This document shows, in pieces, positions 1,157 to 60,952 of a stretch of DNA of 64,000 bases. Under the pieces are notes generated by a model, which was not told the origin of the DNA, searched no databases, and was given only the letters and a program-made list of their open reading frames with translations. The DNA comes from Terrabacter sp. Root181 (GTDB lineage: Bacteria; Actinomycetota; Actinomycetes; Actinomycetales; Dermatophilaceae), in NCBI RefSeq assembly GCF_001428505.1, contig NZ_LMHU01000001.1, positions 1,195,813 to 1,259,812 on the forward strand, written 5' to 3'. Each line of letters starts with the position of its first letter. Positions within the stretch are counted from its first letter, which is position 1. A program made the translations under genes and the position numbers.

Positions 1157-2053
1157 GTGATCCTGCACGTGCGCGCCGCCGTCGAGCAGCTGTATGCCGT
1201 CCCGCCCGCTCGGTTCACCCCGTTGCGTTCCGAGCTGGTGGCCGAGGCGAGGTCGGCGGGCGAGAAGGACCTCGCCGCCTCGGTCGGTGCCCTGCGCAAG
1301 CCGACCCTCGCCGCCTGGGCGGTCAACCACTTCGTCCGCGAGCACGCCGACGAGCTGGAGGAGCTCCGGTCGTTCGCCGAGCTGCTCCGTGAGGCGCAGC
1401 GCAGCCTCGACGCCGACCAGCTGCGCCTGCTCGGCCGCGAGCGGGCCACACGCGTCGACGCTCTCGCCGATCGCATCGCCCAGGTCGCGGCGCAGGACGG
1501 TCCGGGACTCGGCGCGGGCGCGGCCCAGGAGGTGCGCGAGACGCTGACGGCGCTCATCGCCGATGAGGACGCCGAGGCCTCGGTCCTCACGGGCGCGCTC
1601 GTCAAGTCACTCAGCTACTCCGGCTTCGGTTCGGTCGACGTGGCCGATGTCGTCGCCATCGCGGACCTCGACGCGGACGACGACGACGCCGCGGCCGGTC
1701 GCCCCTCGCTCTCGGTGCTGCCCGGGGGTGCCGGAGGCGGCGACCCGGTCGACCTCGAGGAGCGGCGACGGAGCCGGCGGACCGCGGAGCGCGCCCGCCT
1801 CCAGTCGACGCTCGAGACCGCGCGGGCCGACCTGCGGGCCGCGGATCGGCAGGTCGCGGTCCTCACGGCCCGTCAGGAGGAGGTCGTCGAGGGCATCGCC
1901 GACCTCGAGCGGCGGCTCGCGACGGCGAGGGCCCGGCTCGAGAAGGTCACGGGCGAGCTCGACGACGCGACCGGCATACGCAGTCAGCGTGAGCAGGAGG
2001 AGGCCGCGGCCCAGCAGGCGCTCGACGCGCACGACGCGCACGACGGGGCGTGA
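1157..2053 (+). CDS. Conserved hypothetical protein with C-terminal coiled coil
   Basis: A 298-residue soluble protein. The N-terminal ~130 residues are helical and include KPTLAAWAVNHF. A central Asp-rich linker near 175 precedes about 90 residues of heptad-like charged helix (ERRRSRRTAERARL onward), a likely long coiled coil. There is no signal peptide. The GTG at 1157 has GGGAGG eight bases upstream; the longer TTG at 1139 lacks a site. It is convergent with the AI-2E permease gene, 33 bp away. I do not recognise a characterised family; the coiled coil suggests self-association or scaffolding, which is inference. Confidence 0.7.
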   Translation: MILHVRAAVEQLYAVPPARFTPLRSELVAEARSAGEKDLAASVGALRKPTLAAWAVNHFVREHADELEELRSFAELLREAQRSLDADQLRLLGRERATRVDALADRIAQVAAQDGPGLGAGAAQEVRETLTALIADEDAEASVLTGALVKSLSYSGFGSVDVADVVAIADLDADDDDAAAGRPSLSVLPGGAGGGDPVDLEERRRSRRTAERARLQSTLETARADLRAADRQVAVLTARQEEVVEGIADLERRLATARARLEKVTGELDDATGIRSQREQEEAAAQQALDAHDAHDGA

Positions 2054-2086
2054 CGTCCGTCGCGGCCAGGACGGCCGGCGACGTGG

Positions 2087-3496
2087 CTACTTCTTGCCCT
2101 CCGAGGCGTGGTCGCGGGAGAACCAGTGCCGCAGGGTCGCACGCAGGCCGGTCGGCTGGGGCTCGGCCGCGGGCGTCGGCGGCTCGGCGGCCTTCGCCCG
2201 AGCCCGGGGCAGCGCGGGGAGCCGGGCCGTGAACGACGCGTGCTGGTGTTCGGCGTGCTGCCGCTCCCCGGGCTGGGGAGCGGCAAGCTGCGGCAGCAGC
2301 TCGTACTTGCGCGAGTAGATGTCGAAGAGGGCGAGCATCAGCGCGGCCACGGGCACCGCCACGAAGGCTCCGGCGACGCCGAAGAGCGCCGCACCGAACA
2401 TGACGGCAGCGAAGGACACCGCGGGATGCACGTCGACCGCGTCCGCCGAGATGCGGGGCTCGATGGTGACGTTCTCGATCTGCTGGTAGACGAGGGCGAA
2501 GCCGAGCAGCGCCACCCCCTGCCACGGCTCCGGGCCGACGAGGCCGACGAAGACCGGCAGCGCGATCGCGATGTAGGTCCCGATGGTCGGCACGAACTGC
2601 GCCACGAGGCCGGTCCAGATGCCGAGGGCCAGCCAGTAGTCCATGCCGATGATGAGCATGAACAGGCTGGACAGGCCGCCGCAGATCGCGGCGAGCACGA
2701 GCCGGGCCGACACGTAGCCGCCGGTCTTGATGACCGCGAGGTCCCACGCCACCCCGATGACCTCCTGCTGGCGCGGCGGGGCGAGCTGAGCGACCCAGCG
2801 ACGCAGACGCAGGCTGTCGGCCGAGAAGTAGAAGGTGAAGAAGAAGAAGGTGATGGACGAGAAGAAGGCACCGAGCACGGCGGCGACGGCACCGATGAGG
2901 CCGCCGGCGACGCTGCCGGCCAGACTGCCCAGACCGCCGACGTCGCTCGTGAACTGGGCCAGGAACGCGTCGGGGCTGAGCTCGGAGCCGAAGGTCTCGT
3001 TGGCCCACGTCGTCGCCTTCTGGACGAGCGCCGGGATCGAGGCGACGAAGGTGGCGAGCTGGTCGGCCAGCAGGTTGCCGAACGCGAGCATGAAGACGAT
3101 GCAGAAGACGAGCACGCCGAGCATGACGATCATCGTCGCCATCCCGCGTCGCATCCGGCGCGAGAGCCGCGCGACGGCCGGCTCCATGGCGATCGAGGCG
3201 AGCATGGCCATGATGAGGGTGAAGATGACCGAGCCGCCGTCGTCGATGACGAACTTGCCCAGGGCGGCGATCGCGACGATGGCGACCGCGAGCCAGCCCG
3301 CGCGCCACACGCTGCGCCGGTCGAAGCGCACCTGGACGTCGACCAGGCGGGTGTCCACGTCACTCCCGACGCCCGGTTCGGTGCGCGCCGCAGCGCCCGC
3401 CGGGGTGCCCGGTGGTTCGACATCGGAGCCGAGCCGCCCGGTCGACGGTTCGGCGGTAGGACCGGTGTCCGGCTGACCATCGATGGGGCCGCTCAT
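2087..3496 (-). CDS. AI-2E family transporter (PerM/YdiK-like permease)
   Basis: A 469-residue polytopic membrane protein. After an acidic, Pro-rich cytoplasmic N-terminus of about 65 residues come repeated hydrophobic segments (AGWLAVAIVAIAALGKFVI, MIVMLGVLVFCIVFMLAFG, then several more). The central periplasmic region and the AVSFAAVMFGAALFGVAGAF segment are typical of the AI-2E exporter family. The C-terminal ~80 residues are a charged cytoplasmic tail. Members export autoinducer-2 or act as Na+/H+ antiporters; which applies here cannot be told. ATG at 3496 has AAGGA upstream. Confidence 0.85.
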   Translation of the reverse strand: MSGPIDGQPDTGPTAEPSTGRLGSDVEPPGTPAGAAARTEPGVGSDVDTRLVDVQVRFDRRSVWRAGWLAVAIVAIAALGKFVIDDGGSVIFTLIMAMLASIAMEPAVARLSRRMRRGMATMIVMLGVLVFCIVFMLAFGNLLADQLATFVASIPALVQKATTWANETFGSELSPDAFLAQFTSDVGGLGSLAGSVAGGLIGAVAAVLGAFFSSITFFFFTFYFSADSLRLRRWVAQLAPPRQQEVIGVAWDLAVIKTGGYVSARLVLAAICGGLSSLFMLIIGMDYWLALGIWTGLVAQFVPTIGTYIAIALPVFVGLVGPEPWQGVALLGFALVYQQIENVTIEPRISADAVDVHPAVSFAAVMFGAALFGVAGAFVAVPVAALMLALFDIYSRKYELLPQLAAPQPGERQHAEHQHASFTARLPALPRARAKAAEPPTPAAEPQPTGLRATLRHWFSRDHASEGKK

Positions 3497-3635
3497 GCCC
3501 GCATCCTTCCAGTAGCGACGCCCAGAGTGCGTGAACTGCTCGATTTCGTATCCGCGCCGCCGACCGTGTAGTCTCGCCGTCGCACAACAGGTCGACCTGA
3601 AGGCGTTCTCGCAGCGGTTTCTCGGTGTCGGCCGT

Positions 3636-3708
3636 GCCCCAATAGCTCAGTCGGCAGAGCGTTTCCATGGTAAGGAAAAGGTCTAGGGTTCGATTCCCTA
3701 TTGGGGCT
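3636..3708 (+). tRNA. tRNA-Thr (anticodon GGT)
   Basis: A 73-nt cloverleaf: 7-bp acceptor stem gccccaa/ttggggc, D arm around agctcagtcggcagagc, anticodon loop reading GGT, and T arm ggttcgattcc. CCA is not encoded. It lies 60 bp before tRNA-Met, the same pair that precedes rpmG in M. tuberculosis. Confidence 0.95.
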
Positions 3709-4293: not shown

Positions 4294-4300
4294 GCCCCGT

Positions 4301-4747
4301 ATGCCGGTGAACGCAGACTTCCAGGGCCGGGTGTACCCGCCCACCGAGACCTATCGGGTCAGTGCCGCCAAGATCCGTGAGTTCGCCGAGGCGGTCGGTT
4401 CGGCCGACCCGGTGCACGTCGACGCCGACGTGGCGCGAACCCGTGGCTACGCCGACGTCATCGCGCCGCCGACGTTCGCCGTGCTCATCGCCCAGCAGTG
4501 CGACGGGCAGCTGATCCGCGACCCCGAGGCCGGCATCGACTTCTCCCGCGTCGTGCACGGTGAGCAGCGCTTCGTCCACCACCGGCCTCTGACGGCCGGC
4601 GACGCCGTCGTCGGCACGCTCCACGTCGACACCGTGCGCGAGGCCGGCGGACACGCCATGGTGACCACCCGCACCGAGCTCGCCACCGAGGCGGGCGAGT
4701 CCGTGTGCACCGCCACGTCGACCATCGTCATCCGAGGAGCCGAGTGA
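4301..4747 (+). CDS. MaoC/hotdog dehydratase subunit, HadA-like
   Basis: A 148-residue single hotdog domain of the FAS1-like dehydratase type (RVYPPTETYRVSAAKIREFAEAVG, then APPTFAVLI). In mycobacteria HadA is the substrate-binding, non-catalytic partner of the (3R)-hydroxyacyl-ACP dehydratase HadAB. The downstream subunit overlaps by ATGA and carries the catalytic-type motif, so the two probably form a heterodimer. The order rpmG-hadA-hadB matches M. tuberculosis. The mycolic-acid role cannot be assumed here; a general fatty-acyl hydratase role is likelier. Confidence 0.85.
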   Translation: MPVNADFQGRVYPPTETYRVSAAKIREFAEAVGSADPVHVDADVARTRGYADVIAPPTFAVLIAQQCDGQLIRDPEAGIDFSRVVHGEQRFVHHRPLTAGDAVVGTLHVDTVREAGGHAMVTTRTELATEAGESVCTATSTIVIRGAE

Positions 4748-5202: not shown

Positions 5203-5219
5203 GCGGGCCGGACCACCGC

Positions 5220-6293
5220 GTGCACGAGCAACACGACGTCCCCCTGTCGACCCTCACGACCATGAGGGTCGGTGGCCCGGCGTCCCGCGTCGTCACCGCC
5301 GAGACCACCGACGAGCTCGTCGACGCGGTCCGTGAGGTCGACGACGCCGACGAGCCGCTGCTCGTCGTCTCGGGCGGCTCCAACCTCCTCGTGTCCGACG
5401 ACGGCTTCGAGGGCACGGTCGTGCGCATCGCCACCTCGGGCATCACGCCCGAGTCCGCCGACTACTGCGGCGGCGCGGTCGTGCGCGTGGCCGCGGGCGA
5501 GGTCTGGGACGACGTCGTGGCGCACGCCGTCGCGCAGGGCTGGGCCGGCGTCGAGGGCCTGAGCGGCATACCTGGGCTCACGGGTGCTACGCCCATCCAG
5601 AACGTCGGCGCCTACGGCCAGGACGTCTCGCAGACCGTGGCCCAGGTGCGCACGTGGGACCGCCAGGAGCAGGCCGTGCGCACCTTCATGAACGCCGACT
5701 GCGCGTTCACCTACCGCCACTCGCGCTTCAAGGGGCACTCGCGCTACGTCGTGCTCGACGTGGTGTTCCAGTTCGAGGTCGCCGACCTCAGCCGCCCGGT
5801 GGCGTATGCCGCCCTGGCGAAGGGCCTCGGCGTCGAGATCGGCACGCGCGTGCCCCTCTCGGACGCCCGCGAGGCCGTCCTCGAGCAGCGTCGGGCCCGC
5901 GGGATGGTGCTCGACGACGCCGACCCCGACACGTGGTCGTGCGGGTCGTTCTTCACCAACCCCATCCTGAGCCGGCACGAGTTCGACGACCTCGTCGAGC
6001 GCGTGGGGGAGCGGCTCGGGTGGGAGGGGCCCACCCCTCCGCGCTTCCCGGAGGCCGACGGGCGGGTCAAGACGAGCGCGGCCTGGCTCATCGACCATGC
6101 CGGCTTCGCCAAGGGCTTCGGTCTGCCCGCACCGGCCGCGCTGTCCACGAAGCACACCCTGGCCGTCACCAACCGGGGCGGAGCCACGACCGCCGACGTC
6201 CTCGCCCTCGCCCGCCAGGTGCGCGACGGGGTGCACGACGCCTTCGGTGTCACCCTCGTCAACGAGCCGGTCATCGTCGGCGATCGGCTCTGA
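5220..6293 (+). CDS. murB: UDP-N-acetylmuramate dehydrogenase (MurB)
   Basis: A 357-residue cytoplasmic FAD enzyme that reduces UDP-GlcNAc-enolpyruvate to UDP-MurNAc with NADPH in peptidoglycan synthesis. FAD-binding motifs are visible: TTMRVGGPASRVVTA, SGGSNLLVSDDGFEG and LTGATPIQNVGAYGQDV. The proton-donor serine lies in CGSFFTNPI, and the C-terminal NEPVIVGDRL contains the conserved Glu. The start is GTG at 5220, 17 bp after the HadB-like gene. A strong terminator follows. Confidence 0.95.
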   Translation: MHEQHDVPLSTLTTMRVGGPASRVVTAETTDELVDAVREVDDADEPLLVVSGGSNLLVSDDGFEGTVVRIATSGITPESADYCGGAVVRVAAGEVWDDVVAHAVAQGWAGVEGLSGIPGLTGATPIQNVGAYGQDVSQTVAQVRTWDRQEQAVRTFMNADCAFTYRHSRFKGHSRYVVLDVVFQFEVADLSRPVAYAALAKGLGVEIGTRVPLSDAREAVLEQRRARGMVLDDADPDTWSCGSFFTNPILSRHEFDDLVERVGERLGWEGPTPPRFPEADGRVKTSAAWLIDHAGFAKGFGLPAPAALSTKHTLAVTNRGGATTADVLALARQVRDGVHDAFGVTLVNEPVIVGDRL

Positions 6294-10201: not shown

Positions 10202-10391
10202 GTCTCGATCCTGCCACTGCGCCCCTCCGCCCGGGCGCCCGAGTCCGTATGCCGGGTCGAACCGTCCCGCCACGGGCTCGGCACGTGTCCGCCGGGTTGC
10301 CCAGCGAGCTGCCCGGCGGGCTGCCCAGAAGGTGGCCCGGTATCGTCCGGAGGGCGCCCACCGAGGGCTCGTCGAGGGGGTTTCGGGCCGG

Positions 10392-12523: not shown

Positions 12524-12546
12524 ACGGCATACGGACCGTATGCCGT
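12524..12546 (+). promoter_or_regulatory. GTATGCC hairpin between rplK and rplA
   Basis: GGCATAC (12526-12532) and GTATGCC (12538-12544) form a 9-bp stem over a 5-nt loop in the rplK-rplA spacer. It is one of three such hairpins in translation and transcription operons here (see also 40292-40325 and 47982-48018). Confidence 0.7.
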
Positions 12547-13494: not shown

Positions 13495-15372
13495 ATGAGT
13501 CGTCACAGCGCACGCACCACGAGACGTTCCCGATGGGTCCTCGGCGCTCTCGTCGTCGGACTCCCTCTGTCCCTGTTGCCGGCCACGGCCGGCGCTCAGC
13601 CGGCTGGGGCCCCGACCGCCGCCACGGTCGACCGCGGGTGGCACGGCCAGCCCACCCCGCTGCCGAAGGTCCCGGTCATGACGGGCTCCGGTGGCGCGGT
13701 CAGCTCGGTCGACCGGGACGCCTCGCAGGTCGGCATCGACGTGCTGGCCCGGGGCGGCAACGCGGCGGACGCCGCGGTCGCGACGGCGGCTGCCCTCGGT
13801 GTCACCGAGCCCTACAGCGCCGGCATCGGCGGCGGTGGTTTCCTCGTCTACTACGACGCCCGCAGCAGACACGTCTCGACCATCGACGGTCGCGAGACGG
13901 CGCCCGAGTCGTTCACGTCGACGTCGTTCGTCGACGAGACGACGGGCGCGGCCTACCCGTTCGCCACGGCCGTCAACTCGGGTCTGTCGGTGGGTGTCCC
14001 CGGCACGCCCGCCCTGTGGGACAAGGCCTTGCGCGACTACGGCACGTGGTCGCTCAACGAGGCGCTCAAGCCCGCCGAGAAGCTCGCGGCCCAGGGTTTC
14101 GTCGTCGACCAGACGTTCGCCGACCAGACCACGGCCAACGCGACGCGCTTCAAGACCTTCCCCGAGACGGCCCGGGTGTTCCTGCGCGACGGCGGGGCGC
14201 CTGCCGTCGGTTCCGTCTTCACCAACCCCGACATGGCCAAGGCCTATAGGACGCTGCGCACCCAGGGCGTCGCGGCGCTGTATGCCGGGTCGCTGGGTCA
14301 GGCGGTCGTCGCCGAGGCGAGCGCCCCGCACACCGACGGCACGAGCGTGTTGCCCGGCCAGATCAGGATGGACGACCTCCGCGCGTACCGGGCCCTGACG
14401 AAGGACCCGATCCACTCGCGGTACAAGGGCTACGACGTCTACGGCATGCCGGTCCCGAGCTCCGGCGGCATCGCCGTGGCCGAGATCCTCAACCTCATGG
14501 CGGCCTACGAGCAGCGCACCGGGGTCTCCACGGGTGACGTCGACCAGGTGCAGTACCTCCACCGGTTCTCCGAGGCGTCGGCCACCGCGTTCGCCGACCG
14601 GAACCGCTACGTCGGTGACGTATCGAACGTGCCGGTGCAGGAGCTGACGAGCACCGGCTTCGCGGGTGAGCGCTCCTGCCTCTTCGACCCGACGCATGCG
14701 CTCACGCGACCGATTGCTCCGGGCGTCCCCGACCGGTCCTACGTCTCCACCTGCCCGACGGCGCTGGTCTCGTCGCAACCCAGCGAGGGCCAGTCGACGA
14801 CGCACCTGACGGCGACCGACCGGTGGGGCAACGTCGCCTCCTACACGCTCACCATCGAGCAGACCGGTGGCTCGGGCATCACCGTCCCGGGCTACGGGTT
14901 CCTCCTCAACAACGAGCTGACGGACTTCAACTTCACGCCGACCCAGGGCAGTGCGCCCGACCCGAACCTGCCGGGGTCGGGCAAGCGGCCGCGCTCGTCG
15001 ATGAGCCCGACGATCATCCTCGATGACGGCAAGCCGTTCCTCGCCGTCGGCTCGCCCGGTGGCGCGACGATCATCACGTCGGTCTCCCAGACGATCCTCG
15101 GCTACCTGGACCGCGACCTCTCGCTCGTCGACGCGGTCGCGGCGGCACGCCTCAGCTCGCGCAACGGGGCGGAGGGCGCCGAGCCGACCATCCTCGACGG
15201 CCCGACCGGCGCCGGCCTCCGGGCCCTCGGGCACAACCTCGTGTCGGCCGGCACGCCCAACGAGATCGGCGCGGTCACGGCGATCCGGAGCCTCGCGGAC
15301 GGCCAGTTCGAGGCCGCGGCCGAGACGACCCGGCGTGGCGGTGGCTCGGCGATGGTGGTCGACCCCCGCTGA
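13495..15372 (+). CDS. ggt: Secreted gamma-glutamyltransferase
   Basis: A 625-residue Ntn-hydrolase precursor that cleaves or transfers gamma-glutamyl groups (glutathione and related peptides) outside the membrane. The Sec signal is RRSRWVLGALVVGLPLSLLPATAGA. Autoprocessing should occur at T436 in STTHLTATD, giving a ~190-residue small subunit that retains GSGITVPGYGFLLNNELTDF and the GSPGGATI glycine loop; the large subunit has SGIGGGGFLVYYD. It is monocistronic: terminator before, a second one after, and a leaderless-type promoter. Confidence 0.93.
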   Translation: MSRHSARTTRRSRWVLGALVVGLPLSLLPATAGAQPAGAPTAATVDRGWHGQPTPLPKVPVMTGSGGAVSSVDRDASQVGIDVLARGGNAADAAVATAAALGVTEPYSAGIGGGGFLVYYDARSRHVSTIDGRETAPESFTSTSFVDETTGAAYPFATAVNSGLSVGVPGTPALWDKALRDYGTWSLNEALKPAEKLAAQGFVVDQTFADQTTANATRFKTFPETARVFLRDGGAPAVGSVFTNPDMAKAYRTLRTQGVAALYAGSLGQAVVAEASAPHTDGTSVLPGQIRMDDLRAYRALTKDPIHSRYKGYDVYGMPVPSSGGIAVAEILNLMAAYEQRTGVSTGDVDQVQYLHRFSEASATAFADRNRYVGDVSNVPVQELTSTGFAGERSCLFDPTHALTRPIAPGVPDRSYVSTCPTALVSSQPSEGQSTTHLTATDRWGNVASYTLTIEQTGGSGITVPGYGFLLNNELTDFNFTPTQGSAPDPNLPGSGKRPRSSMSPTIILDDGKPFLAVGSPGGATIITSVSQTILGYLDRDLSLVDAVAAARLSSRNGAEGAEPTILDGPTGAGLRALGHNLVSAGTPNEIGAVTAIRSLADGQFEAAAETTRRGGGSAMVVDPR

Positions 15373-16440: not shown

Positions 16441-16654
16441 GGTCCACGACCAATGACCGCCGGTTGGAGGGCGTGGGCAACCACGATCTCCCGAAGGTTC
16501 CGCACGATGCGGGCAGCCAGCGCAGGACACTCAGCCCCACGGCATACCTCGAGTATGTCGCTGCGAGCCCCGAGCGCCCTGCGCCGGGGCTCTTTTCGTG
16601 CAGGCCCTCCGGGCCCCTTCGACAGGCGGCACCACGCAAGGGAAGGAGGCCCAG
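16441..16654 (+). ncRNA. Ribosomal protein L10 leader (autoregulatory 5' UTR)
   Basis: About 210 nt of untranslated RNA between the rplJ promoter and start codon. In many bacteria this leader binds the L10(L12) complex to repress rplJL, and position and size fit. A terminator-like hairpin with a TTTT tail lies inside at 16565-16596, so premature termination is possible. I identify it by position and structure, not by covariance. Confidence 0.6.
16565..16596 (+). terminator. Attenuator-like terminator in the rplJ leader
   Basis: GAGCCCCG (16565-16572) pairs with CGGGGCTC (16585-16592), followed by TTTT, about 60 nt before rplJ. An intrinsic terminator inside a leader implies attenuation control of rplJL. 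Confidence 0.7.
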
Positions 16655-17767: not shown

Positions 17768-17992
17768 CGCTGTGCTCTGGTCGCCGGGCTGCGTGGGCGC
17801 GACCCGCGACGGCGCTCGCGGCGTGGAGCGTCGGCGGGCGTATGCCGTCACGCTCGCTCCCAGCGCACGGGCCCGCCGCCGATGCCGCGACCACCGCCAC
17901 GCCCCGCGCCCTCGTCGACGCTCGCCCCCGGGTCGAGGTGTTTCGTCGCCACTGTGCGCGACGGCATACCTCGACCGGGGAGCGTGGCGGGG

Positions 17993-20523: not shown

Positions 20524-20651
20524 ACCACGACGGGTCCGCTCGCGCGTCCAGGGCGAGCCGATGGCGTATGCCGTCCCGTCCCTCAGGTGTCCGTCGTCAG
20601 CACCCGGAGAGTGCTCGCGCCACGCGCCGTCGATCCGCGCACCGGTCCCGG

Positions 20652-20664: not shown

Positions 20665-21753
20665 ATGGGATGGCTGTCGCGCACCTTCAGGCCCGCTGCT
20701 GACGACGCTCCGGACACCGGCGCCGAGCACGTGGAGCCCGTGGACACCGGCGCGCCCACCGCGGACACCGACGTGCCCACCGCGGACACCGACGTGCCCA
20801 CCGTGGCACCCGGACCGGCCGCCGCACCGGCACCATCGACCCCGCTGGCCGCTCCGACGTCGACGTCACCCTCTGCGCCGACGACGGACGCGTCGAGCCC
20901 GTCGGGGCGCTACGGACCGCTCGTGTGCGTGACGCGCTTCGACACGGCGCCGGCCGAGCTCGAGTGGCAGCTGCCGCTCAACGGCGAGCTGTATCGGCTC
21001 ATGCCGGGGGCAGACCGTCCCGACTACTCGCTCCTCGTCCTCGAGCGCCCGCTGCACTTCTACCCCCGCGAGGGCTTCGACCTGCGTCGTGTCGAGGCCG
21101 AGCAGCAGGTGCAGGACCGCAAGGGCCGCACCATGGTCCGCGTGCACGCACTGCTGCTGTGTGCCCGCTTCGTCGGCCAGCAGCTGCACCCGGGCATGAC
21201 CGACCTCGCCGTCAACCTCGCCTACGTCATCGACAACTCGCTGGCCCGCGACGCCGAGGTCGACTTCGCCAAGATCGAGTTCGCCGCGATCGGCTTCCTC
21301 AGCGAGGGCCACGCCCCGAGGGCCGCCACCGAGCCCGCCCGCGAGGAGGCCGCCGCCGAGGCCGCCACCGAGCAGACCACCCAGGCAACGGTCGCGGCGG
21401 CGACCGAGCCCAAAGAGCCGGTCACGTCCGATGACGACTCGGGCGGCCGGCATACGCCCTCGGAGGTGCTCGACGAGCTGGCGACGACGCTGCGCCGCGG
21501 CATCGAGGAGCAGCGGGGGGCGCCCGTCCAGCGGATGACCGCCGCCCTGACCCTCGACACGGACCACCGCCTGACCGGCCTGTCGGGCAACGCCGACGGA
21601 CAGGCGCCGGTGCCCAGCCCGGACACGTTCGGCCGCCTCGCCGAGGTGCTCGGCCGCCTCGCCCGGCTCGACGGGGCCGACCGGGTCGCCGCCGTCACCG
21701 TGCGCGTCGACGGGGATGCCGTCAGCCACGAGGTCACGGCCACGCACGACTGA
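20665..21753 (+). CDS. Hypothetical protein, acidic linkers around a conserved core
   Basis: A 362-residue soluble protein that I do not recognise. Residues ~8-85 are Thr/Pro/Asp-rich with 7-residue repeats (TADTDVP). A folded core follows from about 88 (GRYGPLVCVTRFDTAPAELEW ... MVRVHALLLCARFVGQQLHPG ... KIEFAAIGFLSEG). A second Ala/Glu/Thr-rich linker leads to a C-terminal helical part (EVLDELATTLRRGIEEQ). There is no signal peptide or membrane span. The ATG at 20665 was chosen because the frame upstream is an antisense shadow of the oxidase gene. It ends 3 bp from the convergent DUF4178 pair. Confidence 0.75.
   Translation: MGWLSRTFRPAADDAPDTGAEHVEPVDTGAPTADTDVPTADTDVPTVAPGPAAAPAPSTPLAAPTSTSPSAPTTDASSPSGRYGPLVCVTRFDTAPAELEWQLPLNGELYRLMPGADRPDYSLLVLERPLHFYPREGFDLRRVEAEQQVQDRKGRTMVRVHALLLCARFVGQQLHPGMTDLAVNLAYVIDNSLARDAEVDFAKIEFAAIGFLSEGHAPRAATEPAREEAAAEAATEQTTQATVAAATEPKEPVTSDDDSGGRHTPSEVLDELATTLRRGIEEQRGAPVQRMTAALTLDTDHRLTGLSGNADGQAPVPSPDTFGRLAEVLGRLARLDGADRVAAVTVRVDGDAVSHEVTATHD
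20758..20799 (+). repeat. Two 21-bp tandem repeats, in frame
   Basis: Two exact copies of a 21-bp unit encode TADTDVP twice; a diverged copy precedes and another follows. They lie within the disordered N-terminus of the hypothetical protein. Confidence 0.85.
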
Positions 21754-24133: not shown

Positions 24134-24991
24134 ATGGCGACGAAGACCCAGACCCGACCGAGCACGGAGCGGCTGCTCCACCTCGCGAGCCGGCCCTCCC
24201 GCGCGCTCGACTCGCTCGGCGAGCAGATGCGCTTCTACGTGCGCTCCCTGGCGTGGAGCGGGCGCACGATCCGCCGCTACAAGAAGGAGATCATCCGCCT
24301 GCTGGCGGAGGTCTCCCTCGGCACCGGTGCGCTCTCCGTCATCGGCGGCACGGTGGGTGTCATCGCCTTCCTCGCCTTCTTCACCGGCACCGAGGTCGGC
24401 CTGCAGGGCTACTCCTCGCTCGAGCAGCTGGGCACCGGAGCCTTCACGGGCTTCTTCTCGGCCTACCTCAACACCCGCGAGATCGCCCCGCTCGTCGCGG
24501 GACTGGCGCTCGCGGCCACGGTCGGCTGCGGCTTCACCGCCCAGCTCGGCGCGATGCGCATCTCGGAGGAGGTCGACGCTCTCGAGGTCATGGGCATCCC
24601 GTCGCTGCCGTTCCTCGTGACGACGCGCATGATCGCCGGCTTCATCGCCGTCATCCCGCTCTACGTCCTGGGCCTGCTCAGCTCGTATGCCGCCACGCGC
24701 TTCATCTCGACGGCGTACTTCGGTCAGTCGGAGGGCACCTACGACCACTACTTCCACCTGTTCCTGCCACCGGGTGACGTGTTCTGGTCGTTCGCGAAGG
24801 TCATGGTCTTCGCCGTCGTCATCATCCTCATCCACTGCTACTACGGCTACACGGCGTCGGGCGGCCCCGCCGGTGTCGGCGTCGCCGTCGGCACCGCGGT
24901 GCGCACGTCGATCGTGGCCATCAACATCGTCGACTTCTTCCTGTCCCTCGCCATCTGGGGCGCCACGACGAGCGTGAGGATCGCCGGATGA
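24134..24991 (+). CDS. Mce permease subunit YrbEB (MlaE family)
   Basis: A 285-residue MlaE-family permease with a ~45-residue basic cytoplasmic N-terminus. It has TREIAPLVAGLALAATVGCG and the coupling motif ISEEVDALEVMGIPSLPF. The GAGAGGGCG site precedes the ATG. Its stop overlaps the mceA start (ATGA). Confidence 0.93.
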   Translation: MATKTQTRPSTERLLHLASRPSRALDSLGEQMRFYVRSLAWSGRTIRRYKKEIIRLLAEVSLGTGALSVIGGTVGVIAFLAFFTGTEVGLQGYSSLEQLGTGAFTGFFSAYLNTREIAPLVAGLALAATVGCGFTAQLGAMRISEEVDALEVMGIPSLPFLVTTRMIAGFIAVIPLYVLGLLSSYAATRFISTAYFGQSEGTYDHYFHLFLPPGDVFWSFAKVMVFAVVIILIHCYYGYTASGGPAGVGVAVGTAVRTSIVAINIVDFFLSLAIWGATTSVRIAG

Positions 24992-27347: not shown

Positions 27348-28375
27348 GCATCCCCTTCCGAGAGCGCAACCCGGTCCCGATCGGTGCCATCGGCCTGCTC
27401 GCCATCGCCGTCGTGCTCTACCTGGCGTTCAACGCCTCTAGCCTTCCGCTCATCGGCGGCGGGACGGCATACAGCGCGGCCTTCTCGGAGGCCGGGGGCA
27501 TCAAGCCCGACGACGACGTCCGCATCGCCGGCGTCAAGGTCGGCAAGGTGACGGGCGTCGACCTCGAGGGCGGCCACGTCCGTGTCGACTTCACCATCAC
27601 CGAGGACGCGAGCTTCGGCCGGCAGACCGGTGCGTCGATCCGGATGAAGACGATCCTCGGCGAGAAGTACGTCGCGCTCGACCCGAAGGGCCAGGGCCAG
27701 CTCGAGGCCGACGCGCAGATCCCCGTCGCGCGCACCGTCAGCTCCTACGACGTCATCAACGCCTTCCAGGACCTCACGACGACGACCGAGCGCATCGACA
27801 CCGACCAGCTGGCGAAGTCCCTCACGGTCATCGCGACGGAGTTCAAGGACAGCCCGCAGTACGTCAAGGCCACCCTCGACGGGCTCTCCCGCCTCTCGCG
27901 CACGGTGGCCGGCCGCGACGCCGAGCTGGGCTCGCTGCTCCAGCGGGCCAACAGCGTCTCCGGCCTCGTCCGCAGCCGCAACCAGCAGGTCAGCACGCTC
28001 ATCAGGGACGCCGACCTGCTCATGGTCGAGCTCGTCAAGCGTCGCGACGACATCCGCACGCTCTTCCGCAACACCTCGGCGCTCGCCAAGCAGCTGACGG
28101 GTCTCGCCCGCGACAACCGGGGCCAGCTCAAGCCGGCGCTCGCCGAGCTCGACAGGACGCTCGCGATGCTCCAGAAGCACGACACCGACCTGCAGAAGAC
28201 GATCCGGGCGATGGCCCCCTTCACGCGGGTCTACGCCAACACGCTCGGCACGGGACGATGGTTCGACACGTGGGTCTCCAACCTCGTCGTGCCCGTCGGC
28301 ACGCCGGGCCTCGCGCTGCCGGGCACGCAGCTGCCCGACCTGCTTCTCCCCGGCACCTCCGGAGGTGGCCGCTGA
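27344..28375 (+). CDS. Mce family protein C
   Basis: A 343-residue Mce subunit starting MSIPFRERNPVPIGAIG with anchor LLAIAVVLYLAFNA. MCE domain about 40-120 (DDDVRIAGVKVGKVTGVDL, KTILGEKYVALDP), then the helical needle with repeated Leu-rich heptads, then GRWFDTWVSNLVVP and a Pro/Gly/Leu tail. The ATG at 27344 overlaps the mceB stop; earlier in-frame codons lie inside mceB. Confidence 0.92.
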   Translation: MSIPFRERNPVPIGAIGLLAIAVVLYLAFNASSLPLIGGGTAYSAAFSEAGGIKPDDDVRIAGVKVGKVTGVDLEGGHVRVDFTITEDASFGRQTGASIRMKTILGEKYVALDPKGQGQLEADAQIPVARTVSSYDVINAFQDLTTTTERIDTDQLAKSLTVIATEFKDSPQYVKATLDGLSRLSRTVAGRDAELGSLLQRANSVSGLVRSRNQQVSTLIRDADLLMVELVKRRDDIRTLFRNTSALAKQLTGLARDNRGQLKPALAELDRTLAMLQKHDTDLQKTIRAMAPFTRVYANTLGTGRWFDTWVSNLVVPVGTPGLALPGTQLPDLLLPGTSGGGR

Positions 28376-33512: not shown

Positions 33513-33595
33513 GAGGCGCCCACCGATGTCCCGCGGCACGACGCACGGGGGACTGGTGCAGCGACCGAGGCTCGGACCACCCCTGGGCCCTGCGG

Positions 33596-33601
33596 CATAC
33601 T
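33596..33601 (+). promoter_or_regulatory. -10 box for leaderless aguB transcript
   Basis: CATACT ends 7 nt before the GTG at 33609, with no ribosome binding site. The box overlaps a GGCATAC motif. Confidence 0.45.
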
Positions 33602-40291: not shown

Positions 40292-40325
40292 GCGTATGCC
40301 GCTGGGCCCGCTCAGCGGCATACGC
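40292..40325 (+). promoter_or_regulatory. GTATGCC hairpin between rpoB and rpoC
   Basis: A 12-bp stem with arms gcgtatgccgct and agcggcatacgc around a 10-nt loop, between the rpoB stop and the rpoC ribosome binding site. There is no T tract. The 16-mer cgtatgccgctgggcc recurs just before the rpoC terminator at 44328. Confidence 0.75.
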
Positions 40326-44285: not shown

Positions 44286-44337
44286 CCGGTCCCGTCCACC
44301 GCGTGAGCGGCGGACGACGACCACCACGTATGCCGCT

Positions 44338-46088: not shown

Positions 46089-46715
46089 ATGACCGAGCCC
46101 ACGGCCGACGAGCCCAACGCGACCGAGCCCGCCGACCACGCGTCGCCGGCCGCGCCCACCGCCGACGAGCCCCTCGAGGCCACTGAGCCCACCGAGGCGA
46201 CCGAGCCGACCGAAGCCACCGACGCCGACAGCGGTCCGGCGCCGACGATCATCGTGCTGACCGAGGAGGCGCTCAAGCCGGTCGACGTCGACAAGATCAT
46301 CGGTCTGCACGAGGAGGACGCGCCGACCTACCGCGTGCTCGTCCCCGCCGACACCGAGCGCAACCTGCTCAGCTCCTTCCTCAACCACCTCAGCCTCTTC
46401 GAGATGCGAGAGGCCCTCGAGTCCCTGCGTCCCGTCGACCGGACCGAGGCCCACAGCGACGCCGACACCGCACTGTCGACCACCTTGGCCGAGTTCGAGG
46501 GACACGACGTCGTCGCCACCGGGGAGATCACTGCCGACGACCCCATGCCGACGCTCGTCGAGGAGGTGGCCCGTCTCGGTGCGCGCGAGGTCGTCGTCGT
46601 CACCGAGCCGCACGCGGTCGAGGACACCTTCCACACCGACTGGGCCTCCCGGGCCCGCGAGACGCTCGGCGTGCCCGTGCTGCACATGTATGCCGGAGAC
46701 TGGCGCCTGGGCTGA
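46089..46715 (+). CDS. Hypothetical protein, acidic tail plus universal-stress-like fold
   Basis: A 208-residue soluble protein. The first ~50 residues are a Glu/Pro/Thr repeat (ATEPTEATEPTEAT). The rest alternates strands and helices in a Rossmann-like order: PTIIVLTEEAL, TYRVLVPADTERNLL, HDVVATGEITADDPMPTLVEEV, AREVVVVTEPHAVED, VPVLHMYAGDW. This resembles UspA-type folds but has no nucleotide-binding glycine loop. The function is unknown. It lies between dacB and the str promoter. Confidence 0.72.
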   Translation: MTEPTADEPNATEPADHASPAAPTADEPLEATEPTEATEPTEATDADSGPAPTIIVLTEEALKPVDVDKIIGLHEEDAPTYRVLVPADTERNLLSSFLNHLSLFEMREALESLRPVDRTEAHSDADTALSTTLAEFEGHDVVATGEITADDPMPTLVEEVARLGAREVVVVTEPHAVEDTFHTDWASRARETLGVPVLHMYAGDWRLG

Positions 46716-46819
46716 GCCGGCCGACCCCGGCCCGACCCGAGCACTCGTCGGGGTGACGTGCCCGCGCTCCGCAGCGGACGGCATACCCCATCGGCCCCGC
46801 ACGGGCCGGTCTATCCGAT

Positions 46820-47981: not shown

Positions 47982-48018
47982 GCCGGTATGCCGGGAGCCC
48001 GCTCCACGGCATACCGGC
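47982..48018 (+). promoter_or_regulatory. GTATGCC hairpin between rpsG and fusA
   Basis: Twelve-bp stem with arms gccggtatgccg and cggcataccggc around a 13-nt loop in the 132-bp rpsG-fusA spacer. There is no T tail, so it may partially terminate, cap or mark a processing site. Confidence 0.72.
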
Positions 48019-51590: not shown

Positions 51591-51732
51591 CTGTCCCGTG
51601 GGCACGCGGTCGCGGAACGCCCGACGGCCCGAGCGGCGTGGAGCGTCGGCGGCCGCTACCAGCGTCACCGTCCTTGCGTATGCCGGTTGGCCGCCTCCGA
51701 TGCCGCTCGTGCCGTCGCGCGTCCCGCTCCTC

Positions 51733-54522: not shown

Positions 54523-55026
54523 TCAGGCGTCGACGCGGCGCCAGAACCACGGGGTCACCTCGGCGAGGAGCGCGGCGACCGCCTGCCGGACGACCTCGGA
54601 GTGGACCACCGTGACCGCCTCATCGCCGTGCAGCACCTGAGCCGCTGCATCTCCGACGCCGGCGGCGCCGCACTCTCCGAAGAAGTCGGCACCGTCCGCG
54701 ACCGCGTGCACCCAGCCCAGCTCTGGATCGTGTCCGCGCAGGTCCTGCTCGCCCACGTACCACCGGGTCACCGACGGCACCCAGACGGCGTCGAAGTCAC
54801 CGGCGGCGACGAGCGAGGCGAGGACGAGGGGCGCGAAGGCGCGGTCCTCCGCCCGCTCGTGATCGAGCCGCTCGAGCATCGCCGAGGCGAGCCGGCTCCG
54901 GTCGTCCGCGGAGAGGTCACCGTCGCGCACCCGGCCGGCCAGGGCGGCATACGCCCGTTCGTCCCGGACGGCTGGGTCGGGTGAGGCGAGGTCGTCGACG
55001 AGCGACCGCAGCGAGGCGTCGGGCAT
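54523..55026 (-). CDS. Short DUF2785-like protein
   Basis: A 167-residue soluble helical protein. The central YVGEQDLRGHDPELGWVHAVADGADFFGE matches the DUF2785 signature (DLRG...GWVHA.AHGAD), except that the usual His in AHGAD is Asp. Family members are usually about 250-300 residues, so the C-terminal part is missing or replaced by VVRQAVAALLAEVTPWFWRRVDA. No continuation is visible in the other frames. No ribosome binding site is seen at 55026. The function is unknown. Confidence 0.65.
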   Translation of the reverse strand: MPDASLRSLVDDLASPDPAVRDERAYAALAGRVRDGDLSADDRSRLASAMLERLDHERAEDRAFAPLVLASLVAAGDFDAVWVPSVTRWYVGEQDLRGHDPELGWVHAVADGADFFGECGAAGVGDAAAQVLHGDEAVTVVHSEVVRQAVAALLAEVTPWFWRRVDA

Positions 55027-55137
55027 GCGGGCGAGCCCGGCCAGCCCGGCCAGCCCTGCCAGCCCGGCCGTCCCGGCCGCCGGGTACCAGTCGTGCCGGT
55101 CGTTGCCGCCGGGCGCCGTATGCCGTATGACTGGCCC

Positions 55138-56002: not shown

Positions 56003-57307
56003 ATGGCGCACTCGTTCGACACCGACACCGAAGCCCAGGGCCTCATCGACTACGTCGACGCCTCGCCGACGCCGTTCCACGCGTGCGAGCAGGCCGCCGC
56101 ACGACTCGTCGCCGAGGGCTTCACCGAGGTCGTCGAGACCGAGCCGTGGCCCACCGAGCCGGGTCGGCGCTACCTCGTCCGCGGTGGCTCGCTCATCGCC
56201 TGGGACACCACGGGCGCCCACGGCGCCGGGTCGGGCCCGGCGGCCGGGTTCCGTGTCGTCGGGGCGCACACCGACAGCCCCAACCTGCGCGTCAAGCCGA
56301 ACCCCGACCACTCCCGGGCCGGCTGGCAGATGCTCGGCATCGAGCCCTACGGCGGCCTCATCCTCAGCTCGTGGCTCGACCGCGACCTCGGGCTGGCCGG
56401 CCGGGTGGCCGTGCGCGGCTCGGCCGGTGTCGAGACGCGCACCTTCCACGGCCGCGATGCGCTGCTGCGGGTCGCACAGCTCGCCATCCACCTCGACCGC
56501 ACCCAGAACGAGGCGCTCACCCTCAACAAGCAGGCGCACATGGAGCCGCTCTGGGGCGTCGGCGACGAGCCCGGCGACTTCGTCGGCTACCTCGCCGAGC
56601 AGGTCGGGGTCGACCGCGAGGACGTCCTGTCGTGGGACGTCATGACGCACCCGGTGCAGCCGTCGACCCGGCTCGGCCGGGCGCGCGAGCTCATCGCCGC
56701 CCCGCGCCTCGACAACCTCGCGACGTCGTACGCCGGCGTGCGTGCCCTGCTCGACGCGGTGGCCACCGAGCCCTCCCACGTGCCGGTGCTCGTGCTCTTC
56801 GACCACGAGGAGATCGGCAGCACGTCCGAGCGCGGCGCCACCTCGACGCTGTTGCCCTCGGTCCTCGAGCGCATCGTCACGGCCGGTGGGGGCACCCGCG
56901 ACGACTACTGGCGGGCGCTCGCGGCCACCGTCATCGCGTCGGGCGACATGGGCCACGCGACCCACCCCAACTACGCCGAGCGCCACGAGCCCATGCACCA
57001 GATCCGCGTCAACGGCGGCCCGGTGCTCAAGGTGAACACCAACCTGCGCTACGCGACGGACTCCGTCGGTGCGGCGGCGTTCCGGATCGCCTGCGAGCAG
57101 GCCGGGGTCCCGATGCAGACCTTCGTGACCCGCAGCGACCTCCCGTGCGGCTCGACCGTCGGCCCGGTGACGTCGTCGCTGACGGGCGCCACCACGGTGG
57201 ACTTCGGCGCGGCCGCCCTGTCGATGCACAGCACCCGCGAGCTCATGGGCGCCGAGGACCCGGCCATGTATGCCGGTGCGCTGAGCGCCTTCCTCGCCCC
57301 GGCCTGA
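56003..57307 (+). CDS. M18 family aminopeptidase
   Basis: A 434-residue cytoplasmic dizinc aminopeptidase (aspartyl/leucyl type, ApeB/PepC family). Zinc ligands and catalytic residues are in VGAHTDSPNLRVKP, FDHEEIGSTSERGA and GDMGHATHPNY, with the late histidine in SMHSTREL. It removes N-terminal residues from peptides during turnover. ATG at 56003 was chosen over upstream in-frame codons because the promoter lies just before it. Confidence 0.93.
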   Translation: MAHSFDTDTEAQGLIDYVDASPTPFHACEQAAARLVAEGFTEVVETEPWPTEPGRRYLVRGGSLIAWDTTGAHGAGSGPAAGFRVVGAHTDSPNLRVKPNPDHSRAGWQMLGIEPYGGLILSSWLDRDLGLAGRVAVRGSAGVETRTFHGRDALLRVAQLAIHLDRTQNEALTLNKQAHMEPLWGVGDEPGDFVGYLAEQVGVDREDVLSWDVMTHPVQPSTRLGRARELIAAPRLDNLATSYAGVRALLDAVATEPSHVPVLVLFDHEEIGSTSERGATSTLLPSVLERIVTAGGGTRDDYWRALAATVIASGDMGHATHPNYAERHEPMHQIRVNGGPVLKVNTNLRYATDSVGAAAFRIACEQAGVPMQTFVTRSDLPCGSTVGPVTSSLTGATTVDFGAAALSMHSTRELMGAEDPAMYAGALSAFLAPA

Positions 57308-57458
57308 GCCGCCGACGGAGGAGCGGCGCGAGGCCTCGGGTGCGGCGCCCTCCTGGCCCGGTCCACCGCGTGACCGGCCCCGCCCGCGCCGGGCGACCGG
57401 ACGGCATACGCCGGCGGGGTGGTCCTGCCCGGGGCCGGACGGGTGCGAGGATGAAGGC

Positions 57459-58495: not shown

Positions 58496-58505
58496 GGCGG
58501 TTGAG

Positions 58506-59159
58506 ATGACTGTTGCTCAGAAGAACGTCAAGGGCGTGCTCGGCGAGAAGCTCGGCATGACCCAGGTGTGGGACGCAGACAACAAGCTCGTCCCCGTGAC
58601 CGTGGTCAAGGCCGGCCCCTGCGTCGTGACGCAGGTGCGCGCCGACGAGACCGACGGCTACTCCGCGGTCCAGATCGCCTTCGGTGCGATCGACCCGCGC
58701 AAGGTGAACAAGCCCATGAGCGGCCACTTCGAGAAGGCCGGCGTCACGCCGCGCCGTCACCTCGTCGAGCTCCGCACGGCCGACGCCGCCGACTACGAGC
58801 TCGGCCAGGAGATCACGGCCGAGTCCTTCGAGGCCGGACAGCGCGTCGACGCGACGGGCACGACCAAGGGCAAGGGCTTCGCCGGTGTCATGAAGCGTCA
58901 CGGCTTCCACGGCGTCAGCTCCTCGCACGGTGCGCACCGCAACCACCGCAAGCCGGGCTCCATCGGCGGCTGCTCGACCCCGGGCCGTGTCTTCAAGGGC
59001 ATGCGCATGGCTGGTCGCATGGGTGGCGTTCGCCAGACGACCCAGAACCTCCAGATCCACGCCGTTGACGCCGAGAAGGGCCTCCTGCTCATCAAGGGTG
59101 CCGTCCCCGGCCCCCGCGGTGGCATCGTCCTGATCCGCACGGCTGCGAAGGGTGCATGA
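58506..59159 (+). CDS. rplC: 50S ribosomal protein L3
   Basis: A 217-residue peptidyl-transferase-proximal protein. [14 protein letters not shown] at the start; [14 protein letters not shown] and [20 protein letters not shown] form the loop reaching the catalytic centre. It overlaps rplD by ATGA. Confidence 0.97.
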
Positions 59160-59791
59160 TCCACATGGCCACGAAGACCCCCACGCTTCCCGCTGACATC
59201 TTCGACGTCCAGACCAACGTCCCGCTGATCCACCAGGTCGTGGTGGCACAGCTCGCGGCCGCTCGTCAGGGCACGCACTCGACGAAGACCCGCGGCGAGG
59301 TCCGCGGCGGTGGGCGCAAGCCCTACCGCCAGAAGGGCACCGGTCGCGCCCGCCAGGGCTCGACCCGCGCCCCGCAGTTCGCCGGCGGTGGCGTCGTCCA
59401 CGGCCCGCAGCCGCGTGACTACTCGCAGCGCACCCCCAAGAAGATGAAGGCCGCCGCCCTGCGCGGTGCCCTCTCCGACCGGGCCCGCTTCGACCGCATC
59501 CACGTCGTCGACTCCATCGTCTCGGGCGACCTGCCCTCGGCGAAGGACGCCGCCGCGCTGCTCGCCGGTCTGACCGAGCGCCCCAACCTGCTCGTCGTGC
59601 TCGAGCGCGGTGACGAGGTGGCGTTCAAGTCGGTCCGCAACCTGCAGAACGTCCACGTGCTGGTCGCCGACCAGCTCAACACGTACGACGTCCTGTGCGC
59701 CGACGACATCGTCTTCACCCAGGCTGCGCTCGACGCGTTCGTCGCCGGTCCCGTGAAGGCTGACAAGGCCGACAAGGAGGCCACCAAGTGA
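59156..59791 (+). CDS. rplD: 50S ribosomal protein L4
   Basis: A 211-residue exit-tunnel protein. The extended loop is [21 protein letters not shown] short Lys/Asp tail ([11 protein letters not shown]) ends it. The start may be ATG at 59156 (overlapping the rplC stop, GAAGGG upstream) or ATG at 59165, which removes three residues. Confidence 0.95.
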
Positions 59792-60087
59792 GCATCCACG
59801 CCAAGGACCCCCGCGACATCCTGATCGCGCCGGTCGTCTCCGAGAAGTCGTACGGTCTGCTCGACGAGGGCAAGTACACCTTCATCGTCGACCCCCGTGC
59901 GAACAAGACGGAGATCAAGATCGCCATCGAGCAGATCTTCAACGTCAAGGTCGACAAGGTCCACACCCTGAACCGTCAGGGCAAGACCCGTCGCACCCGA
60001 TTCGGCCTCGGCAAGCGCAAGGACACCAAGCGTGCGATCGTCTCCCTCCGCGAGGGATCGATCGACATCTTCGGTGCGGGCGCCTGA
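59788..60087 (+). CDS. rplW: 50S ribosomal protein L23
   Basis: A 99-residue exit-site protein that docks trigger factor and [23 protein letters not shown] and [19 protein letters not shown] are typical. GTG at 59788 overlaps the rplD stop (GTGA). Confidence 0.96.
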
Positions 60088-60115
60088 GATCGACGAAGAA
60101 TAAGGACACACGAAC

Positions 60116-60952
60116 ATGGGTATCCGTAAGTACAAGCCGACCACTCCGGGCCGTCGTGGCTCGTCGGTCGCCGACTTCGTCGAGATCACGCGTTCCACCC
60201 CGGAGAAGTCGCTCGTCCGCCCCCTGTCGAAGACGGGTGGCCGCAACAACGCGGGCCGCATCACCACGCGTCACATCGGTGGCGGCCACAAGCGTGCCTA
60301 CCGCGTCATCGACTTCCGTCGCCACGACAAGGACGGCGTGCCGGCCAAGGTCGCTCACATCGAGTACGACCCCAACCGCACCGCGCGCATCGCGCTCGTC
60401 CAGTACTCCGACGGCGAGAAGCGCTACATCCTGGCCCCGAACAAGCTGAAGCAGGGCGACCCGATCGAGAACGGCCCCGCGGCCGACATCAAGCCGGGCA
60501 ACTCGCTTCCGCTGCGCAACATCCCCGTGGGTACGGTCGTCCACGCGATCGAGCTCAAGCCCGGTGGTGGCGCGAAGATCGCCCGCTCCGCGGGTGCTCG
60601 CGTGCAGCTCGTCGCCAAGGACGGCCCCTACGCCCAGCTGCGTATGCCGTCCGGTGAGATCCGCAACGTCGACGCGCGCTGCCGCGCGACCGTCGGCGAG
60701 GTGGGCAACGCCGAGCAGAGCAACATCAACTGGGGCAAGGCCGGCCGCATGCGCTGGAAGGGCAAGCGCCCGACCGTCCGTGGTGTCGCCATGAACCCGG
60801 TGGACCACCCGCACGGTGGTGGAGAGGGCAAGACGTCCGGTGGACGTCACCCCGTCAGCCCCTGGGGTCAGGCCGAAGGCCGCACCCGCAAGGGACACAA
60901 GGAAAGCGACAAGCTCATCGTTCGTCGCCGCCGTACTGGCAAGAAGCGCTGA
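60116..60952 (+). CDS. rplB: 50S ribosomal protein L2
   Basis: A 278-residue core protein needed for subunit joining and peptidyl transfer. It starts [34 protein letters not shown] and [18 protein letters not shown] include the functionally important histidine. AATAAGGA lies upstream. Confidence 0.97.

Follow-up and report, generated by a model that had tools for sequence, protein, structure and literature searches.

The DNA stretch considered here comprises 64,000 nucleotides of Terrabacter sp. Root181 (contig NZ_LMHU01000001.1) and is referred to, at its full length, as the window. It carries rpoB and rpoC, the gene of ribosomal protein L1, and genes resembling rpsG and fusA. RpoC and L1 were assigned by Pfam, RpoB from its size and neighbours, and the rpsG-like and fusA-like genes by size and order only; gene calls throughout are from our own hexamer-based caller. 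An Rfam scan of the window returned three tRNAs only. The RpoB protein is 97% identical to RpoB on a contig of Humibacillus xanthopallidus (family Intrasporangiaceae). Dispersed through the window is a short word, which an initial annotation had noticed as the heptamer GTATGCC and likened to DNA uptake sequences (DUS), with a protein-binding or methylation motif considered just as possible. About 31 copies were counted there, 18 and 13 on the two strands; an exact scan finds 32, with 19 on the forward and 13 on the reverse strand, and the claim was real and understated. The base following GTATGCC is G at all 32 copies, which makes the asymmetric octamer GTATGCCG the actual unit.

Under an order-3 Markov model 1.6 copies of the octamer are expected in the window, while the earlier expectation of 6 or 7 heptamers is correct from base composition alone. 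Seventeen of the 32 copies lie between genes. Intergenic DNA makes up 7,562 of the 64,000 bases, and the density is 2.2 per kb there versus 0.27 per kb within genes. The 17 intergenic positions given initially were all recovered within 2 bases, except 46790, which is actually 46780. The three facing pairs described at the same time also exist. The pair 12525/12538, upstream of the L1 gene, faces outward, while 40294/40316 in the rpoB-rpoC spacer and 47986/48007 between the rpsG-like and fusA-like genes face inward; the genes flanking each pair are on the same strand. All sites are listed below, with the one-letter variant GGATGCCG indicated where an aligned relative carries it (G denotes genomes and L loci).

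GTATGCCG sites in the window (coordinates, strand, location):
1192..1199, +, inside gene 1157-2053
1972..1979, -, inside gene 1157-2053; G024 has GGATGCCG
4299..4306, +, at the called start of gene 4301-4747
5564..5571, -, inside gene 5220-6293; GGATGCCG in G024 and G034, also in G005 (a GTATGCCG genome)
5804..5811, +, inside gene 5220-6293
10247..10254, +, intergenic
12525..12532, -, intergenic, upstream of the L1 gene, inverted-pair arm 1; GGATGCCG in G024 and G034
12538..12545, +, intergenic, upstream of the L1 gene, inverted-pair arm 2; GGATGCCG in G024 and G034
14280..14287, +, inside gene 13576-15372
16540..16547, -, intergenic; retained in L021, G005, G001 and G023
17840..17847, +, intergenic
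17962..17969, -, intergenic
20566..20573, +, intergenic; flanks cgatggc-GTATGCCG-tc
21448..21455, -, inside gene 20929-21753
24685..24692, +, inside gene 24134-24991
27465..27472, -, inside gene 27344-28375
29591..29598, +, start of gene 29586-30839
33593..33600, -, intergenic
34514..34521, +, inside gene 33609-34571
40294..40301, +, rpoB-rpoC spacer, hairpin arm 1; GGATGCCG in G024 and G034
40316..40323, -, rpoB-rpoC spacer, hairpin arm 2; GGATGCCG in G024 and G034
44328..44335, +, intergenic, downstream of rpoC
46688..46695, +, inside gene 46089-46715
46779..46786, -, intergenic
47986..47993, +, intergenic, hairpin arm 1, between the rpsG-like and fusA-like genes
48007..48014, -, intergenic, hairpin arm 2
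51678..51685, +, intergenic
54945..54952, -, inside gene 54523-55026
55118..55125, +, intergenic
57268..57275, +, inside gene 56003-57307
57402..57409, -, intergenic
60642..60649, +, inside gene 60116-60952; G024 has GGATGCCG

The source genome (G000, 4.94 Mb in 12 contigs) contains 2,231 copies of GTATGCCG, 1,135 forward and 1,096 reverse, compared with 250 copies (124 + 126) of the reversed control word. In 699 kb of this genome 292 copies were found versus 5.2 expected (order-3 Markov, with the motif masked in training). The octamer is the top-ranking one of this sample with a z value of 120, the best non-overlapping word having 15.6. Over-representation of this kind is a property of words of the DUS type and of the uptake signal sequence (USS) type. 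Two outcomes had been named initially as contrary to the claim, namely counts near Markov expectation and an enrichment explained by a preference for the codon pair TAT-GCC. Both were looked for, and neither was found. The codon-pair explanation has in its favour that the Tyr-Ala frame accounts for 130 of the 216 sampled copies that fall entirely within called genes. However, synonymous-codon shuffling gives 4.7 in that frame and 12.5 in all, or 14.8 in a second shuffle, so that the coding copies exceed expectation about 15-fold. Two antisense frames are also enriched (48 versus 3.7 and 28 versus 0.6), as are the intergenic copies (67 versus 2.4). Since the signal is lost on codon shuffling and both orientations are enriched, codon pairing provides no explanation, and a preference for TAT-GCC or a compositional artefact can be regarded as refuted.

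The density in G000 is 0.78 per kb between genes and 0.38 per kb in genes; coding and non-coding placement with a non-coding excess is again the arrangement of DUS and USS words. The intergenic bias of the initial annotation gives only part of the picture: coding DNA contains most of the copies in the sample (216 of 292), again in numbers well beyond expectation. It is important to note that locus L107 was included in the codon-frame shuffle, the octamer ranking, and the pair and GC-window counts, and left out of the density, dialect-shuffle and one-mismatch counts. A second over-represented intergenic word family was seen in the same sample, GAGAGGCCA / CGAAAGGCCA, with 15 and 10 copies versus less than one expected.

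The distribution of the octamer among relatives is uneven. At least 600 copies of GTATGCCG are present in 81 of 149 genomes of the family and at most 404 in the other 68, while the counts stay at background level in the 22 genomes sampled from other families of the order. Word counts in motif-poor relatives revealed two one-letter variants. The first, GGATGCCG, occurs 3,816 times in G024, 3,949 times in G034 and 4,480 times in G131, and reaches at least 1,800 copies in 7 of the 149 genomes (the next highest count is 1,336). The second, GTACGCCG, occurs 4,185 times in G130, 3,903 times in G070 and 2,216 times in G031, with at least 1,100 copies in 10 of the 149; the tallies of 81, 7 and 10 were counted by eye from tables. 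The dialects vary at letters 2 and 4 around a common core, G-A-GCCG, and clade-specific dialects sharing a core are also found in DUS and USS systems. The dialect can change inside a genus. In genus g66 the mixed genome G074 (1,217 GTATGCCG and 2,195 GGATGCCG) stands beside G131 (361 and 4,480), with G145 switched as well, and in genus g26 GTATGCCG is used by G033 and G124 and GTACGCCG by G098. G151 of genus g57 has low counts of all three words. Two dialects, GTATGCCG with GGATGCCG or GTACGCCG, are abundant at once in G074 and G108 (g66) and in G150 and G161 (g54); these genomes were possibly caught in transition.

The variants, too, exceed codon-shuffle expectation in coding DNA of G034, G024 and G031. 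For GGATGCCG, the counts are 112 versus 22.1 (codon shuffle) in coding and 54 versus 2.2 in intergenic DNA of G034, and 43 versus 11.1 and 14 versus 0.6 in G024. For GTACGCCG in G031 they are 67 versus 16.5 and 2 versus 0.3. Weaker enrichment is seen for GTACGCCG in G032 (16 versus 7.1 coding, 2 versus 0.9 intergenic) and for GGATGCCG in G009 (35 versus 12.5, 2 versus 1.2). In G000 the three words foreign to it stay close to expectation or fall below it. The motif word is denser between genes also in G001, G005, G015, G023, G024 and G034.

Outside the family, GGATGCCG is enriched in Microbacterium loci (coding 36 versus 8.6, intergenic 5 versus 0.5) and GTACGCCG in the Nocardioides loci L064 and L087 (19 versus 6.8 and 5 versus 0.2), L049 being left out of that count. 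Streptomyces loci have no intergenic excess of GGATGCCG (34 versus 17.7 coding, 3 versus 2.9 intergenic), and mycobacterial loci show no intergenic excess of the dialect words either. In an order-wide draw of 159 genomes, 9 of the 10 genomes of family f19 contain at least 1,500 copies of GGATGCCG; from its named Microbacterium and Agromyces loci this family is inferred to be the Microbacteriaceae. The coding figures of G022, G027 and Agromyces were left out, as the gene caller is unsuitable there. A fourth word, GGACGCCG, is weakly enriched in G018 (coding 48 versus 25.9, intergenic 6 versus 1.5) and exceeds 3,500 copies in G036, G039 and G050 of other families, where the reversed control has 770-890; it is perhaps a further dialect. 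In 100 kb each of four motif-poor genomes, G010, G016, G017 and G021, no word stood out to the degree seen in the positive controls. In the small genomes G212, G225, G277 and G264 of f4, another family of the order, GGATGCCG is in mild excess, about 4- to 8-fold over the reversed control. The Nocardioides stalactiti locus L049 is rich in CCCCAGCA (18 versus 0.8) and the Naasia locus L051 in CTGCTGAA/CCTGCTGA (14 and 16 versus about 1), which are possibly other repeated words.

The window was aligned with orthologous DNA of relatives, and only gap-free sites were counted, the same window sites being reused across genomes. In the GTATGCCG genomes L021, G005 and G001 the octamer is preserved at intergenic sites in 29 of 31 comparisons, versus 42-56% for random octamers. 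At coding sites it is preserved in 17 of 29, much as random octamers are. Coding copies thus turn over and yet remain enriched, as drive predicts. In the GGATGCCG genomes, the intergenic window sites read GGATGCCG in 4 of 4 aligned cases (G034) and in 4 of 6 (G024); the two arms of the rpoB-rpoC hairpin and those of the pair 12525/12538 are among them. The coding sites read GGATGCCG in 1 of 5 and 3 of 9 cases, respectively. Among random octamers, a difference confined to that letter occurs in only 2-3%. Separate sites altered in the same way strongly suggest a single trans-acting, sequence-specific reader whose specificity has changed. In an RpoB tree G024 and G034 pair up next to a sister group of 11 GTATGCCG rows; the GTATGCCG genome G033 lies outside, and the GTACGCCG genome G031 stands beside the GTATGCCG genome G026. 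Together with the switches inside genera, this tree implies several changes of dialect.

The arrangement of the sites along the chromosome gives additional information. The flanks of GTATGCCG are weak, roughly GGC before and T after, followed by G and GC a few bases downstream, and the conserved flanks are mainly one-sided. In the relative G023 the flank has grown to a form of roughly 22-24 bases, GCC-GTATGCCG-CTGRGCYNGCTCC, which occurs inside and between genes. The origin of replication, oriC, of G000 was placed by its 5 parS sites and 8 DnaA boxes in locus L002 3442-13706 (about 103-114 kb of contig C1). Right of it, the window and 18 other stretches of the 1.89-Mb contig C1 contain 103 forward and 92 reverse copies, this part of the contig being treated as one replication arm. 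The weak strand bias of the initial annotation is present in the window (19:13), but no replication-strand bias is seen over the 19 stretches. The gaps between sites are more even than random in G000 (1 of 1000 simulations was as even) and in G034 (11 of 1000). Ten inverted pairs within 60 bases account for 20 of the 292 sampled sites. Among 12 close pairs, 7 face inward and 3 outward, and six of the seven inward pairs have starts 21-22 bases apart.

The density of GTATGCCG also rises with GC content (Spearman 0.36 over 174 windows of 4 kb). None was found in four 4-kb windows below 64% GC, three of them from one 27-kb contig, and the density is 0.55 per kb above 74%; the octamer itself has only 62.5% GC. 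A mobile insert in a tadA gene of G000 (71% GC) has a single copy in its 9.7 kb. On the element side in G008 (73% GC) there is none in 8.3 kb; both samples are small. The GC trend and the sparse copies in mobile DNA may reflect a scarcity of the octamer in foreign DNA, as would be expected of a word of the DUS or USS type.

The machinery for DNA uptake, which a word of the DUS or USS type calls for, is present in the source genome as adjacent comEA and comEC genes and two tad loci. Its presence does not discriminate, and one tadA is split (locus L247 3059-3409, 3410-13077 and 13078-14361, at about 349-360 kb of contig C8 of G000). A 427-residue open reading frame is the N-terminal part, a 116-residue one must be the C-terminal part, and the 9.7 kb between the pieces include a serine recombinase. 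The equivalent tadA is whole in G004 (L249) and G023 (L252). A tadA piece abuts a serine recombinase gene in G029 (L251 12195-14188), and a piece of a neighbouring pilus gene does so in G008 (L250 6690-8498). Mobile elements appear to hit the pilus locus repeatedly. The interruption of competence genes by such elements is a theme documented in parts of PMC12955456 and PMC4774983, and by analogy the tad locus of these relatives may likewise serve transformation and be under attack. In the motif-poor genome G022 the ComEA match (C1 1681311-1681821) is in two pieces, one with an internal TGA, and comEA looks broken there.

The known transformation route of Actinobacteria is that of Micrococcus luteus; passages of PMC4322843 state that it requires both tad (Flp pilus) loci, with comEA and comEC mutants tested alongside. 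Beside the tad genes of G000, a 1,429-residue open reading frame (L247 14632-18921) combines FHA with an FtsK/SpoIIIE ATPase. It was considered as the reader of the motif and rejected, as Pfam gives FHA and FtsK/SpoIIIE and no FtsK gamma domain. Some ATPases of type VII secretion have this composition of FHA and FtsK (section of PMC11217815), and an FtsK/SpoIIIE-family gene beside tad-1 affects transformation in M. luteus (section of PMC8467076).

The genomic pattern allows us to propose, at about even odds, that GTATGCCG is a DNA-uptake-type sequence. It resembles an uptake sequence in most of the genomic respects tested, although we do not class it as a DUS. The likeness to DUS drawn initially is borne out by abundance, strand neutrality, the intergenic preference in G000, some inverted pairs, even spacing and dialects; it is not borne out by a reader or by the competence genes, which do not discriminate. 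The octamer would be the core of a genome-wide, strand-neutral signature of self DNA. Its sequence-specific reader would most likely belong to a Tad/Flp-pilus and ComEA/ComEC transformation route of the Micrococcus luteus kind, and would favour the uptake of octamer-bearing over octamer-free DNA. Homologous recombination of the incoming DNA would then spread and repair the octamer where protein and regulatory constraints permit. As the specificity of the reader drifts, the sites would follow, and the dialects GGATGCCG and GTACGCCG could arise in this manner. More tentatively, and with a little less than an even chance in our estimate, the results may represent an uptake-sequence system of Gram-positive Actinobacteria. 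It would have at least three one-letter dialects (GTATGCCG, GGATGCCG, GTACGCCG and perhaps GGACGCCG), extend through the Intrasporangiaceae, the Microbacteriaceae and probably Nocardioides, and have been gained, lost and switched repeatedly. Its receptor would be Tad-pilus or ComEA-based and non-homologous to ComP, and mobile elements inserting into pilus genes would oppose it.

Several observations weigh against an uptake function. Known uptake-sequence cases use a type IV pilus of the PilM class, and pilM (PF11104) was not found in 34 of 36 family genomes, G000 included; the two with a match are G033 and G028 (partial). Over 58 genomes PilM is present in 13 and does not track the motif. ComEC (PF03772), TadE (PF07811) and ComEA are present in 57, 56 and 56 of the 58, respectively, and do not separate motif-rich from motif-free genomes; being nearly universal, they neither support nor refute the link to uptake. 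No reader of GTATGCCG was found among these four proteins and the FtsK-like gene beside tad. The split tadA means that G000 may not be transformable now. The even spacing is not significant in four of the six genomes tested (G015, G024, G031 and G023, which have fewer sites). Words with one mismatch are barely enriched between genes (78 versus 63.7), so the octamer is strict, while tolerant uptake predicts over-represented mismatched forms (as argued in part of PMC1939737). The dialect word is not denser between genes in G031 (0.35 versus 0.71 per kb within genes) or in G009 (0.17 versus 0.40), where the intergenic values rest on 2 copies each. Finally, in the more distant GTATGCCG genome G023, 4 of 6 intergenic window sites are kept but none of the 9 coding ones, compared with 40% and 37% of random octamers, respectively.

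A methylation-linked or other reader of the octamer is possible. The strongest rival, though an unlikely one, is a word like the highly iterated palindrome HIP1 of cyanobacteria, in which a DNA methylase, or repair around its mark, biases mutation or repair so that sites accumulate and the dialects follow the methylase. Passages of PMC4390886 describe HIP1 as an abundant octamer with derivatives or alternate words in some genomes, a matching methylase, and 1,000-2,000 copies per Mb; the motif word of G015 has about 1,100 and that of G000 about 450 per Mb. The strictness of the octamer, with few near-misses, is also HIP1-like. However, HIP words are palindromic, while GTATGCCG is not its own reverse complement and its flanks are mainly one-sided. 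A binding site for a nucleoid or chromosome-organisation protein that needs many sites is unlikely too, and slightly more so. The even spacing in G000 and G034, the strand neutrality and the strong intergenic conservation would be well accounted for, but such a protein does not explain the retention of coding copies, which is no better than that of random octamers (17 of 29, and none of 9 in G023). It also agrees poorly with the four family genomes G010, G016, G017 and G021, which show no such word in the 100 kb sampled from each; the word must therefore be dispensable.

Orientation-reading systems such as the FtsK-orienting polar sequences (KOPS) would be strand-biased, and a Chi-type recombination signal should likewise favour one strand within each replication arm. 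A signal of this type, read by an enzyme of the AddAB, AdnAB or RecBCD type, could be an asymmetric, abundant and clade-specific octamer like the present one, but the counts of 103:92 beside oriC led us to reject both Chi and KOPS, and we consider a Chi-like origin improbable. Even more doubtful is a derivation from fossils of repetitive extragenic palindromic (REP) elements or other short palindromic mobile elements, or from transcription terminators. The inward pairs with their regular distance and the extended form in G023 would fit. REP copies, however, are whole hairpin units outside genes, whereas the 20 paired sites are a small share of the 292, and most copies are single octamers in genes at the excess over codon expectation given above. 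As to terminators, the window pairs lie between same-strand genes and no run of T was seen in the next 20 bases on inspection, no terminator scan having been run. Origins of both kinds were rejected on the coding copies and the small share of pairs.

If the uptake interpretation is correct, self-recognition in bacterial sex would have evolved again with a different pilus and in a Gram-positive lineage. To our knowledge, DNA uptake guided by a sequence tag has been described in no more than two families, both Gram-negative. Among the matches listed in open PMC papers there was no report of GTATGCCG nor of an uptake sequence in Actinobacteria or other Gram-positive bacteria. The dialects, including the genomes with two of them, would then provide a natural series of receptor and word pairs in which the receptor could be found by correlation. 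A strict octamer that forms dialects and occupies thousands of sites in an actinobacterial family calls for an explanation even if its reader turns out to be a methylase or chromosome protein.

It is important to compare this pattern with the known systems. The DUS of the Neisseriaceae appears to be the best analogy for GTATGCCG: both are short, asymmetric, over-represented words found inside and between genes, with some intergenic inverted pairs, with clade dialects that share a core, and with two one-letter dialects in one genome. Eight DUS dialects with a common core, intergenic inverted pairs and two dialects in one genome are described in parts of PMC3630211. However, the hosts here are Gram-positive actinobacteria, most without a PilM match, while DUS has a ComP-like receptor; the inverted pairs of the window lie between same-strand genes and not at terminators, and near-miss words are barely enriched. 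The USS of the Pasteurellaceae, which has a core with weaker flanks, is similar in its many copies within genes, the lack of orientation bias and the excess outside genes, but it has no sequence in common with GTATGCCG, and phylum and envelope differ. The same features, namely no orientation bias, presence inside genes and preference for non-coding DNA, are given for uptake words in a section of PMC1939737. HIP1 (GCGATCGC) and the alternate HIPs of cyanobacteria are also very abundant octamers, which in some genomes give way to a derivative or a different word, but they are palindromic and methylase-linked. The Flp/Tad transformation of Micrococcus luteus belongs to the same phylum and corresponds to the comEA/comEC genes and two tad loci of G000, although no uptake word is mentioned under the terms checked in the parts of PMC4322843 and PMC8467076 concerned. 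Among these systems, the uptake sequences of Neisseria and Haemophilus match the pattern better than palindromic HIP1, Chi or REP.

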